Below are positions 17,017 to 22,424 of a stretch of DNA of 64,000 nt, piece by piece; positions within the stretch are counted from its first letter, which is position 1, and every line of letters begins with the position of its first letter. This DNA comes from Burkholderiales bacterium (GTDB lineage: Bacteria > Pseudomonadota > Gammaproteobacteria > Burkholderiales > JABEVD01). The translations under genes and the position numbers were made by a program. Below the pieces are notes generated by a model. It saw nothing but the letters and a program-made list of their open reading frames with translations. It did no database searches and was not told the DNA's origin. The stretch lies in assembly GCA_019753155.1 (NCBI GenBank), contig JAIELG010000016.1, positions 1 through 64,000 on the forward strand, in the 5' to 3' direction.

Positions 17017-17490
<474 letters not shown>

Positions 17491-17798
17491 GGCGCCTGTC
17501 GTCAGTTTCGTGCCAGTCCAGATAAGGGTGGCCTGTCGACCTCGAAGTTCTGTAACGAATTGAATTCCAGACCTGAGGAATTTAATGAGGGTAGATCTTC
17601 CCGCGCCAGATGACATCGTTGCGACTTACGTAGCTGCTTGCTATTCTTATAAGCAGCTCATAAGAGATTACTTTAATCTAAATTCATAATGGGGAGAACT
17701 TGTTGTATAGCGCGGAGAATGCGCTGCTTATCTAACGCTTGATTTTTGAAAATAGTGGCTTGTGGTTTTATGGTGCAAGAAATTAAAGGGAATTTAAT
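17491..17798. other. AT-rich junction upstream of the helicase gene
   Basis: A 308-base gap where composition changes from GC-rich to AT-rich. It holds one possible tiny gene (17585-17689) and an 8-base-pair hairpin AGCTGCTT / AAGCAGCT at 17632-17639 and 17651-17658 with an 11-base loop and no following T run. It presumably also contains the promoter of the helicase operon. No direct repeat or integrase site was recognised at this end of the island. Confidence 0.4.
17585..17689 (+). CDS. Possible 34-residue small ORF
   Basis: Opens with ATG after GAGGAA at 17575-17580 and reads MRVDLPAPDDIVATYVAACY and on to SYKQLIRDYFNLNS. The IVATYVAACYSYKQLIRDYF segment has the look of a helix-turn-helix start or the truncated head of a transposase or regulator, but no family can be named. 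It could be a remnant at the island edge or chance. Confidence 0.25.
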   Translation: MRVDLPAPDDIVATYVAACYSYKQLIRDYFNLNS

Positions 17799-19961
17799 AT
17801 GGTTTCGACAATATGGGGAGCAACCAAGAAGCCAATATCCAGCCAGCGTCTAGCTCGTTTTTTCGCAGATCATCCAAGTTATGATGGCTACTTATATATC
17901 GGTTATCCGATTATTGGTACACCAGATGGCCCTTATCCAATTGATGCTTTGTGGTTAAGCCCGAAAAAAGGGATTGTTCTTTTTAATTTGATTGAGGGTC
18001 GAGATCTAGGTTACTTCCAAGATGCGCAGGATGATAGTATAAACAAACTCGAAGCCAAGCTTCGTAATCACAAGTCATTGATGAAGGGGCGCAATCTTCA
18101 GGTTGATCTTCATGTGGCAACATTTGCGCCAATCGGGAATGTCAACGAACAATATGACGGAGATTACCCTGTTTGCAATGCGGATAACCTTGATTCTTGG
18201 ATCAATGGTCTGGAGGATAAAGCAAATCAAGTTTACGAAGCAACTCTTGCCGTAATCCAGTCGATTTCCACAATTCGAAAGGGGAGGAAGAAGCGGGAAG
18301 TCAGAAAGCAGGATTCCCGTGGCGCAAAACTTAAGGATCTAGAGGATTCCATCGCCAATCTAGACAACCTACAAGGACGAGCGGTTATTGAAACTGTTGA
18401 AGGGGTGCAACGAATCAGGGGATTGGCTGGTTCAGGAAAAACCATAGTGCTGGCCTTGAAAGCAGCCTATCTACATGCACAACATCCTGACTGGAAAATC
18501 GCAGTGACATTCCATACTCGTTCACTCAAGGGCCAATTTAAGCGACTTATTAACACTTTTGTCATTGAGCAAACAAACGAAGAGCCTGATTGGGATAATT
18601 TGCACATTATCCATGCTTGGGGGGCTCCAGGAGGTACTGAACGAAATGGGTTATATTATAGTTTTTGTCAGGCACATGGCCTAGAGTTTTTTGACTTCAA
18701 ATCAGCCCAGTTTCGCTTTGGTGAAAACCAGGAATTTGAAGGCGCTTGCGAGAAAGCTTTGCAAGAGGCTATAGAAGAAAATCCAGCATACAATGTTATA
18801 TTGATTGATGAAGCCCAAGATTTCTCACCGGCATTTCTCCGTCTCTGCTATGAGTTTGTTGGGGCGGATAAACGCCTTGTCTATGCGTATGATGAATTAC
18901 AGAATCTAAGCAACAAATCACTGCCTTCCCCAGAGGAAATCTTTGGTCATCATCCTGACGGTACTCCGCGCGTACGTTTTGCTGAACCGCAACTAGGTAT
19001 GCCTCAGCAGGACGTAATTCTTGAAAAATGCTACCGAAATTCCCGGCCTGTGTTGGCAACTGCGCATGCACTGGGATTCGGAATATATCGAGAGCCACCA
19101 GAAAAGGCTAGTACCGGTCTAATTCAGATGTTCGACCAAAGCAAGCTCTGGCTAGACGTGGGATACAAGGTGGTCGGTGGTAAACTTGAAGATGGAAGCG
19201 ATGTGCGGTTAGCGCGTACTGAGGACAGTAGTCCGAAATTTCTCGAAAGCCACTCATCGGTTGATGATCTACTGCAATTTCAATATTTTGATACTCCCCA
19301 AGAGCAAGCAGAGTGGCTAACAAATGCGATCAAATACAATCTTGAGGAGGATGAGCTTCAGCCGGACGACATCATTGTGATAAATCCTGATCCCCTAACT
19401 ACACGGAAAGTGGTTGGTCCAATACGAAAGCTGTTATTCGAATGTAAGATCAACTCACATTTGGCTGGCGTAGATACTTCTCCTGATATTTTTTTTGATG
19501 CTGACGCAAAATCTATAGCATTTACAGGCATTTACCGTGCGAAGGGGAATGAGGCCGGCATGGTTTATGTGATCAATGCGCAAGATTGCTATTCGTCGTT
19601 TGGTAACCTTGCACGTGTAAGAAATCGACTGTTTACTGCCATAACCCGTAGCAAGGCGTGGGTGCGAGTTTTGGGCGTGGGCAAAGGAATGAAAAAACTC
19701 ATGGCAGAGTTTGATACTGTTAAAAAAGATGACTTCGAGTTGCGGTTCCGTTATCCAACCGAAGAAGAGCGTAAGCAGCTCAATATTGTGAATCGCGACA
19801 TGACAGAGGATGAGAAGAAGCGGGTTAAACAGGTTCAAAAGGGTTCGACAAATCTTGATACTCTGTTGAATGATCTTGAGTCAGGAAAAGTCTTCCTTGA
19901 GGATTTACGAGAAGATCAACTTAAACGGTTGCGTTCATTATTCGGCGGAGGAAACGCATGA
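17799..19961 (+). CDS. Superfamily 1 (UvrD-like) helicase with NERD-like N terminus
   Basis: A 720-residue protein. Residues 1-120 resemble the NERD/PD-(D/E)XK-like module (GYPIIGTPDGPYPIDALWLS with Asp49, then KGIVLFNLIEG with Glu66), although the usual catalytic lysine after the acidic residue is not seen. The helicase core has Walker A GLAGSGKT at 208-215, Walker B LIDEAQDF around 335-342, RNSRPVLATAHAL (motif IV region) and the late motifs YRAKGNEAGMVYV and NRLFTAITRSKAW. The gene is AT-rich compared with its neighbours and overlaps the DUF2290 gene by 4 bases. It is probably an acquired nucleic-acid enzyme used in phage or plasmid defence; that role is inferred. Confidence 0.8.
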   Translation: MVSTIWGATKKPISSQRLARFFADHPSYDGYLYIGYPIIGTPDGPYPIDALWLSPKKGIVLFNLIEGRDLGYFQDAQDDSINKLEAKLRNHKSLMKGRNLQVDLHVATFAPIGNVNEQYDGDYPVCNADNLDSWINGLEDKANQVYEATLAVIQSISTIRKGRKKREVRKQDSRGAKLKDLEDSIANLDNLQGRAVIETVEGVQRIRGLAGSGKTIVLALKAAYLHAQHPDWKIAVTFHTRSLKGQFKRLINTFVIEQTNEEPDWDNLHIIHAWGAPGGTERNGLYYSFCQAHGLEFFDFKSAQFRFGENQEFEGACEKALQEAIEENPAYNVILIDEAQDFSPAFLRLCYEFVGADKRLVYAYDELQNLSNKSLPSPEEIFGHHPDGTPRVRFAEPQLGMPQQDVILEKCYRNSRPVLATAHALGFGIYREPPEKASTGLIQMFDQSKLWLDVGYKVVGGKLEDGSDVRLARTEDSSPKFLESHSSVDDLLQFQYFDTPQEQAEWLTNAIKYNLEEDELQPDDIIVINPDPLTTRKVVGPIRKLLFECKINSHLAGVDTSPDIFFDADAKSIAFTGIYRAKGNEAGMVYVINAQDCYSSFGNLARVRNRLFTAITRSKAWVRVLGVGKGMKKLMAEFDTVKKDDFELRFRYPTEEERKQLNIVNRDMTEDEKKRVKQVQKGSTNLDTLLNDLESGKVFLEDLREDQLKRLRSLFGGGNA

Positions 19962-20629
19962 CGCTTAGCGCCGATAAAATACGGAAACAGGTCGAGATTC
20001 TTACCGCGGACTTAATCAGATTGAGTCTGTGTAATCATCAGAATTTTCCATCGGTGACATCTGGGGCCGGAGGGTTTAAGGATATTTCATTCAGCAAAGC
20101 TGGAGATCTAAGTATGGTGCTTAAAAACCAGCCATATCGGGAAATTTATACTGAATTGGATCGCGCACAAGCATACAATCTCAAAATGATTGACGGGGCT
20201 TTGATTCAAATGATGTACCGATTCAAGGGGAATGCGTTGAAAGGTCACCGCTTGGCTTTTTTTCCCTCTCCATACCTAGAAGAGTTCCAAAACAATCCAG
20301 ATATCTACGAGAGTGATGAGATTTTCGCGGATATCATGATGAGGAATATTGTTGTATTTCCACTAAGATTTGATTTTGATTCTTCCAGCGAAATTTTCGT
20401 GGATCAGCACCATCCAAAATCGCATTTGACACTTGGTCAATATATAAATTGTCGTATTCCTGTGAGCTCGCCAGTTACGCCATTTGCCTTTTTAGACTTC
20501 ATTTTGCGAAGTTTTTACAATACGGCGCATCGAAAATATTCATCAGAGATTAATAAATTCGTAGATGTATTTTCGAATACAATTACTGATTCAGAAAAGA
20601 AAATTGTCCATGTACAGATTCCTTCATGA
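19958..20629 (+). CDS. DUF2290 protein, partner of the helicase
   Basis: A 223-residue protein matching the DUF2290 family, most clearly in the C-terminal half (HPKSHLTLGQYINCRIPVSS, then FLDFILRSFYNT) and in AQAYNLKMIDGALIQMMYRF. No membrane segment or known catalytic motif is visible; the conserved H-P-K-S-H-L-T and C-R-I-P residues may form an active or binding site. It overlaps the helicase gene by 4 bases and shares its AT-rich composition, so the two are one transcriptional and probably functional unit. The biochemical role is unknown. Confidence 0.78.
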   Translation: MTLSADKIRKQVEILTADLIRLSLCNHQNFPSVTSGAGGFKDISFSKAGDLSMVLKNQPYREIYTELDRAQAYNLKMIDGALIQMMYRFKGNALKGHRLAFFPSPYLEEFQNNPDIYESDEIFADIMMRNIVVFPLRFDFDSSSEIFVDQHHPKSHLTLGQYINCRIPVSSPVTPFAFLDFILRSFYNTAHRKYSSEINKFVDVFSNTITDSEKKIVHVQIPS

Positions 20630-20756
20630 TGCCCTTGACTCGCCCCAGTTGCAAGCCTGCTTGCTGATCATGACCGTTTAGGGGCGGGGGGAATCCCTAC
20701 CCAAAATCGCCGTCATGGGTTAAGCTTCAAAGTTTCCCCTGCACCGAAAAGAGACC

Positions 20757-22424
20757 ATGGCACAATACGTTTTCACCATGAACCGCGTGGGCAAGATCGT
20801 GCCCCCGAAGCGTCAGATCCTGAAAGATATTTCTCTCAGTTTTTTTCCCGGCGCCAAGATCGGCGTGCTGGGTCTCAACGGTTCCGGGAAGTCCACCCTT
20901 CTGAAAATCATGGCGGGAATCGACAAGGACATCGAGGGCGAGGCGATTCCCATGCCGAATCTCAACATCGGTTACCTGCCGCAGGAGCCGCAGCTCGATG
21001 CCGATCTCACCGTGCGCGGAGCGGTCGAGGCGGGACTCGGGGAAGTGTTCGAAGCGCAACAGAAGCTGGAAGCCGTTTATGCCGCCTATGCCGAACCCGA
21101 TGCGGATTTCGATGCGCTCGCCATCGAGCAGGCAGGGCTGGAAGCGATCATCGCAGCCTCCGATGGACACAACGTCGAAGTGCAGATGGAAATCGCGGCT
21201 GACGCCCTGAGGCTCCCGCCCTGGGATGCGACGATAGGTCATCTTTCGGGCGGAGAAAAGCGCCGCGTCGCGCTGTGCCGCCTCCTGCTCTCCAAGCCCG
21301 ACATGCTGCTGCTGGACGAGCCGACCAACCATCTGGATGCGGAAAGTGTGGAATGGCTGGAACAATTCCTCACCCGGTTTCCCGGCACCGTGGTCGCCGT
21401 CACCCATGACAGGTATTTTCTGGACAATGCCGCCGAATGGATACTGGAACTCGACCGCGGCCACGGCATTCCCTGGAAGGGCAACTACAGTTCGTGGCTG
21501 GAGCAGAAGGAAGCCAGGCTGGAAACCGAAGCCAGGCAGGAAGCCGCGCGCATCAAGGCGATGAAGCAGGAACTGGAATGGGTGAGGCAGAACCCCAAAG
21601 CGCGCCAAGCCAAATCCAAGGCGCGTCTCGCCCGTTTCGACGAGCTTTCCAATTACGAATACCAGAAACGCAACGAGACCCAGGAAATTTTCATCCCGGT
21701 CGGAGAGCGCCTGGGCAACGAAGTCATCGAATTCGATGGCGTTTCCAAGGCCTATGGCGACCGTCTGCTGCTGGACGATCTGAGCTTCAAGGTGCCGCCC
21801 GGCGCCATCGTCGGCATCATCGGCCCGAACGGCGCGGGCAAATCCACGTTGTTCCGCATGATGGCCGGCAAGGAAACCCCTGACTCGGGGGATGTGAAGA
21901 TCGGGGCGACGGTGAAGATTGCTTATGTAGACCAGTCGCGGGATGCGCTTTCCGCAGGCAAGAGCGTTTTCGACGAAATCTCGGACGGGCGCGACATCCT
22001 GACCGTGGGCAAATACGAGACCCCTGCGCGCGCCTATATCGGCCGCTTCAATTTCAAGGGAGGCGACCAGCAGAAGATCGTGGGCAATCTCTCGGGTGGC
22101 GAGCGCGGACGCCTGCATCTTGCCAAGACGCTGATTTCCGGCGGCAACGTTTTATTGCTGGACGAGCCTTCCAACGACCTCGACATCGAAACGCTGCGCG
22201 CTCTCGAAGATGCGCTGCTCGAATTCGCCGGCTGCGTGATGGTCATCTCCCATGACCGCTGGTTCCTCGACCGGATCGCGACCCACATCCTCGCCTGCGA
22301 GGGAGACTCGAAGTGGGTGTTCTTCGACGGCAATTACCAGGAATACGAAGCGGACAAGAAGAAGCGCCTCGGTGAAGAAGGCGCGAAGCCCAAGCGCCTG
22401 CGCTACAAGCCGATCAGCCGGTGA
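20757..22424 (+). CDS. ettA: Energy-dependent translational throttle EttA (ABC-F ATPase)
   Basis: A 555-residue ABC-F protein with two ATP-binding cassettes and no membrane domain. It binds the ribosomal E site and gates early translation elongation according to ATP/ADP ratio. Cassette 1 has GLNGSGKST, signature LSGGEKRR and LLLDEPTNHLD; cassette 2 has GPNGAGKST, LSGGERGR and LLLDEPSNDLD. The interdomain linker WVRQNPKARQAKSKARLARF is characteristic of EttA, and length matches the E. coli protein. The gene lies at the right edge of the AT-rich island and returns to the host's GC-rich composition. Confidence 0.97.
   Translation: MAQYVFTMNRVGKIVPPKRQILKDISLSFFPGAKIGVLGLNGSGKSTLLKIMAGIDKDIEGEAIPMPNLNIGYLPQEPQLDADLTVRGAVEAGLGEVFEAQQKLEAVYAAYAEPDADFDALAIEQAGLEAIIAASDGHNVEVQMEIAADALRLPPWDATIGHLSGGEKRRVALCRLLLSKPDMLLLDEPTNHLDAESVEWLEQFLTRFPGTVVAVTHDRYFLDNAAEWILELDRGHGIPWKGNYSSWLEQKEARLETEARQEAARIKAMKQELEWVRQNPKARQAKSKARLARFDELSNYEYQKRNETQEIFIPVGERLGNEVIEFDGVSKAYGDRLLLDDLSFKVPPGAIVGIIGPNGAGKSTLFRMMAGKETPDSGDVKIGATVKIAYVDQSRDALSAGKSVFDEISDGRDILTVGKYETPARAYIGRFNFKGGDQQKIVGNLSGGERGRLHLAKTLISGGNVLLLDEPSNDLDIETLRALEDALLEFAGCVMVISHDRWFLDRIATHILACEGDSKWVFFDGNYQEYEADKKKRLGEEGAKPKRLRYKPISR

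Follow-up and report, generated by a model that had tools for sequence, protein, structure and literature searches.

What do a helicase gene and a DUF2290 gene do together in an AT-rich island just upstream of an ABC-F gene that we take to be ettA, and how might their products share the work? The island lies in a stretch of 64,000 nucleotides from a Burkholderiales bacterium, the whole of which was analysed and is called the window here. A preliminary description of the window had reported a 720-residue SF1 helicase and a DUF2290 gene with a 4-base overlap, and had proposed that the two form a two-component defence system. Open reading frames and Pfam matches bore out the gene pair. Both frames are intact and on the same strand, with the overlap as described (Table 1); the helicase carries UvrD_C_2 and UvrD-helicase domains, and its neighbour matches PF10053 (E 1e-52).

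The proposed role in defence was upheld by profile search and by published work on a homologous pair. The helicase matched the PADLOC Helicase model PDLC03002 over residues 1-715 of 720 (1134 bits), and the second protein matched the DUF2290 model PDLC02999 over residues 4-222 (339 bits). A homologous 'Helicase + DUF2290' pair specifically inhibits phage T7, according to Rousset et al. 2022 (PMC9122126). With a helicase-model match, an adjacent DUF2290 gene on the same strand and intact helicase motifs, the locus is almost certainly the known Helicase + DUF2290 anti-phage system, complete, probably functional and horizontally acquired upstream of ettA. The two-component system is already described, and this locus adds another copy. 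In a 2024 paper, P. aeruginosa PA1372/PA1371 was counted as a member of this system (PMC11637435); in PAO1 this pair lies within a small low-GC island with a transposase nearby (PMC4410645). The window copy shares with PA1372/PA1371 and with the K. pneumoniae SB5961 locus the same two families, the helicase-first order and the AT-rich acquired setting. It differs in its site, having inserted into the chromosome upstream of ettA and not into a P4-like satellite hotspot.

Table 1. Features of the locus, in window coordinates, and the evidence for each.
Feature	Position	Strand	Evidence and remarks
DUF4160 gene, upstream of the DUF2442 gene	17017-17240		Pfam match; spread over three reading frames
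DUF2442 gene, upstream of the helicase	17188-17490		Pfam match; apparently intact
AT-rich acquired segment	17491..20696	.	GC profile, GC rank, blastn against same-genus loci
SF1 (UvrD-like) helicase, 720 aa, ATG start	17799..19961	+	PADLOC, Pfam, motifs I-VI, N-terminal fold search
Helicase codons 49-65	17943..17993	+	Family alignment: D49 retained; N63-L-I65 in place of the catalytic E-x-K
DUF2290 protein, 223 aa, ATG start, candidate effector	19958..20629	+	Pfam, PADLOC, conserved residues, AlphaFold model
ABC-F gene, downstream of the pair	20757-22424		Pfam: two ABC domains, consistent with EttA

Base composition set the pair apart from its surroundings. The composition profile fell from about 0.55-0.60 GC to 0.41-0.47 at ~17.5-20.7 kb, and the pair itself (17799-20629, GC 0.433) ranked below all 612 sliding windows of equal length across the 64 kb (mean 0.571). 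The AT-rich island originally placed at ~17.5-20.65 kb was thereby confirmed, the pair having the highest AT content in the window (43% GC, compared with 57%). GC3 was 0.40 and 0.39 in the helicase and DUF2290 genes, against 0.72-0.76 in three adjoining genes (ettA, 0.76). By blastn against same-genus loci, homology upstream of ettA ended at ~20697, 68 bases past the DUF2290 stop. The island had also been described as inserted between a DUF4160/DUF2442 gene pair and ettA. The position was correct, but the DUF4160 gene is broken, not intact: its reading runs on through two frame changes, and it is probably a pseudogene. A short frame of 34 codons just 5' of the helicase (17587-17691) occurs in a single copy in the genome and received no assignment. 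Within the island, the repeats were short, came in two or three copies and suggested no particular meaning; promoters and terminators did not rise above chance level.

No same-genus genome examined retains both immediate flanks together, so none offers a clean empty site for comparison. In relative G002, the interval between ettA and the homologue of the 15984-16766 gene is occupied by another gene pair, for which HEC-01A and HEC-01B are the best PADLOC matches. Since G002 holds this pair in the same place, the interval upstream of ettA looks, from these two genomes, like a small exchange site for defence-type gene pairs in the genus. The G002 cassette (L028:3428-5196) consists of an AAA ATPase and a small partner, upstream of ettA.

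How the two proteins might work was approached through their conserved residues and predicted folds. The helicase comprises a putative degenerate PD-(D/E)XK-type domain at residues 1-160 and a helicase core at ~186-660. Motifs I, II, III, IV, V and VI are kept across a deep family alignment, and K214 (Walker A), T215, D337, E338, Q368 and R617 are invariant in 28 sequences; the Walker A Lys214 named earlier is therefore present here as in 28/28 relatives. A predicted model of the N-terminal 185 residues (pLDDT 86) was searched with Foldseek, and most of its top solved-structure matches were PD-(D/E)XK-class nucleases, each individually weak at E 5e-3 to 0.1 and none at E 0.001. Matches included NucS/EndoMS 2vld (prob 0.99), SduA, Card1, Can2, Bax1 and R2 endonuclease (best E 5e-3). 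These matches suggest a PD-(D/E)XK-type fold for the helicase N terminus. The N terminus had been called NERD-like; the Pfam NERD model did not match it, and what survives of the label is a predicted fold of the same broad nuclease class.

The preliminary description had further noticed that the nuclease-like domain seemed to lack its catalytic lysine. The family alignment confirmed and extended this observation. Where unpaired relatives read, for example, DFVVLHQELGLIVIECK, the window helicase reads DALWLSPKKGIVLFNLI in the same register; D49 is retained while E and K are gone, and the window helicase thus lacks the D...E-x-K active site of NERD/PD-(D/E)XK nuclease-helicases. Both residues are missing in all 33 DUF2290-paired helicases (E-x-K in 0/33), whereas the motif stands in 7/9 of the unpaired relatives that are full length. 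Of the unpaired relatives, five were mostly picked for nuclease-domain annotation (5/5 with E-x-K) and five more were chosen without such annotation (two with the motif, two haloarchaeal ones without it and one N-terminally truncated as annotated). These unpaired NERD-UvrD helicases, from cyanobacteria, Deinococcus and haloarchaea, share with the window protein a homologous core and an N-terminal nuclease-class domain at 27-36% identity; they differ in that most retain D...E-x-K and none has a DUF2290 neighbour. In the tree, a single well-supported branch sets the first five unpaired helicases apart, so that the association of E-x-K loss with DUF2290 pairing represents one evolutionary event; in these sequences, loss and pairing are confounded by descent. 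The haloarchaeal plasmid helicases L124:1556-4579 and L126:1131-4153, which have neither E-x-K nor DUF2290, share a different conserved upstream gene of ~243 aa with a hydrophobic N terminus; this may be a further case of a nuclease traded for a partner.

An alignment of 22 divergent DUF2290 sequences contained seven invariant columns (start Met included), among them D79, R137, H152 and R166, and D139 and H156 were near-invariant. Judged by conservation, this D/H/R set is compatible with an active site. The AlphaFold model of the protein (pLDDT 85, pTM 0.85) found nothing at E <= 0.001 in PDB or BFVD with Foldseek, and sequence and profile searches of PDB gave no match. Three candidate relationships were discarded. 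A short profile match to a dual-specificity phosphatase was at chance level (E 0.49), and chorismate-lyase/UTRA-fold proteins recurred in the Foldseek list with TM-scores of ~0.11 and prob <= 0.07. Kinship with the TumE (DUF6516) translation-targeting toxins was considered because the order of short motifs (RLAY, RYD, HxH) is similar by eye; profile comparison found no relationship, with an hhalign probability of 0.3% and a score below the best column-shuffled controls.

By analogy with Hachiman, we tentatively propose, at somewhat short of even odds, that a helicase acting as sensor and motor, with a dead nuclease domain, controls a DUF2290 effector. The SF1 helicase would bind and translocate on abnormal or replicating phage DNA. 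Its N-terminal PD-(D/E)XK-type domain, with the active site lost, may serve as a platform for DNA binding or partner docking, and helicase action would release or activate the DUF2290 effector, whose conserved D/H/R residues are a candidate active site. Because the DUF2290-paired helicases appear to have lost their cutting site, DUF2290 would be the likely effector. We infer a helicase-DUF2290 complex, the sensor and effector roles and an activity of DUF2290. An architecture of sensor helicase and effector is established for Hachiman, with HamB as the sensor helicase and HamA as the effector (PMC12278908). The window pair resembles Hachiman in its two-gene layout of small effector and helicase and in the proposed working mode; it differs in that HamB is a DEAD-box helicase, and neither window protein matches HamA (PF08878) or HamB. 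Gabija also has two genes including a UvrD-like helicase, and the window helicase is weakly similar to GajB (E 5.8e-5); however, GajA is an OLD-family ATPase-nuclease, no GajA match exists at the locus, and DUF2290 has no ATPase or Toprim domain. Taken together, the best overall explanation, which we hold to be probable by a modest measure, is a known defence system working through a sensor helicase and a DUF2290 effector.

The main rival reverses these roles. The helicase would itself be the effector, dismantling or blocking phage replication forks, and DUF2290 would license it as a recognition or regulatory subunit. All SF1 motifs of the helicase are intact and DUF2290 has no recognisable enzyme fold, both of which fit such an arrangement, as does the loss of a plasmid-related phenotype in PAO1 when the helicase alone is removed: without PA1372, the cost of plasmid pNUK73 is gone (PMC4410645). 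However, the most conserved residues of DUF2290 are polar or charged, more like an active site than a pure scaffold, and the nuclease motif is kept in related helicases and lost in paired ones, as expected if cutting had moved to the partner. We consider the reversal unlikely, and DUF2290 our preferred candidate for the effector.

DUF2290 was found in 0/8 same-genus genomes; among 100 relatives searched at the protein level, two genomes had it, one of them the window's own. A family search across the phylum gave 9/399 genomes, and two other phylum-level samples gave 5/399 and 9/396. In a plasmid collection, 13 records carried it, from Acinetobacter, Escherichia, Nostoc, Thioflavicoccus and Actinomycetota. 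The distribution of Helicase + DUF2290 is patchy. No relatives of the pair were found in phage records and viral contigs, so these collections do not support carriage by phages. Linkage was constant: wherever an intact DUF2290 gene was examined, at ~30 loci spread over Pseudomonadota, Bacillota, Bacteroidota, Cyanobacteriota and Actinomycetota, a helicase of the same family stood directly upstream on the same strand; the exceptions were one gene truncated by the end of its contig (L042) and a fragment (L065). The neighbours of DUF2290 are thus SF1 helicases, as a defence pair would have it, and not mainly housekeeping genes. GC of the pair was below that of its flanks at 32/33 loci, some of them near-duplicates. 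Neighbouring genes include type I restriction-modification, BREX PglX/PglZ, Hachiman and integrases, and some copies are on conjugative plasmids.

Several copies have unusual settings. One on a Lactococcus plasmid is flanked by two IS6 transposases and has an abortive-infection gene nearby. On a Thioflavicoccus mobilis plasmid (L048:835-10669), the pair lies within a BREX operon, with the PglX-like methyltransferase gene on one side of it and the PglZ gene on the other. Syntrophomonas zehnderi has two copies with matching surroundings in one genome (L067, L068), in both of which the helicase falls into the same pair of overlapping frames, of 328 and 444 aa, through a frameshift that is either inherited or programmed.

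That the pair is often plasmid-borne itself would suit a system directed mainly at plasmids or other mobile elements, or a selfish passenger, with phage defence secondary. PA1372 affects rep expression as well as the cost of pNUK73 (PMC4410645), which points the same way. Yet four other plasmids were unaffected by PA1372 loss in the same study, a homologous pair inhibits T7 (PMC9122126), and phage-defence systems are among the pair's neighbours. We find this explanation quite improbable.

Pairwise divergences of the helicase and DUF2290 were correlated (r=0.92, 28 pairs; 0/5000 permutations as high). Against the nearest relative, pS was 0.83 (saturated) and non-synonymous divergence 0.15-0.18 in both genes, which therefore evolved under purifying selection. 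This selection, together with full-length frames that retain all family-invariant residues, speaks against a decaying remnant of acquired DNA that no longer functions in its host, an account to which the broken DUF4160 gene next door lends some colour and which we regard as very improbable. That the helicase serves chromosomal repair beside an incidental neighbour agrees with its UvrD-like domains, but is largely refuted by the patchy distribution (DUF2290 missing from all same-genus relatives and nearly all of the 100), the atypical GC of the pair and its obligate linkage across phyla, and has a negligible chance of being right.

In the available text of the literature naming DUF2290, we found no explanation of the mechanism of the Helicase + DUF2290 system. 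The comparison made here yields a specific proposal, in which the N-terminal domain of the helicase would be a dead nuclease and the activity would be carried by the conserved polar residues of DUF2290. It also ties the system to PA1372/PA1371, the PAO1 pair behind a classic plasmid-cost experiment. The system itself is known and widespread; what would be new is how the work is divided between the two proteins, as the loss of the active site suggests. A bolder version, which we think doubtful, is that a NERD-UvrD-type nuclease-helicase gave up its active site and passed cutting or killing to a DUF2290 protein with a catalytic fold outside the solved structures. If true, the DUF2290 lineage would represent the evolutionary split of one enzyme into a motor and an effector.
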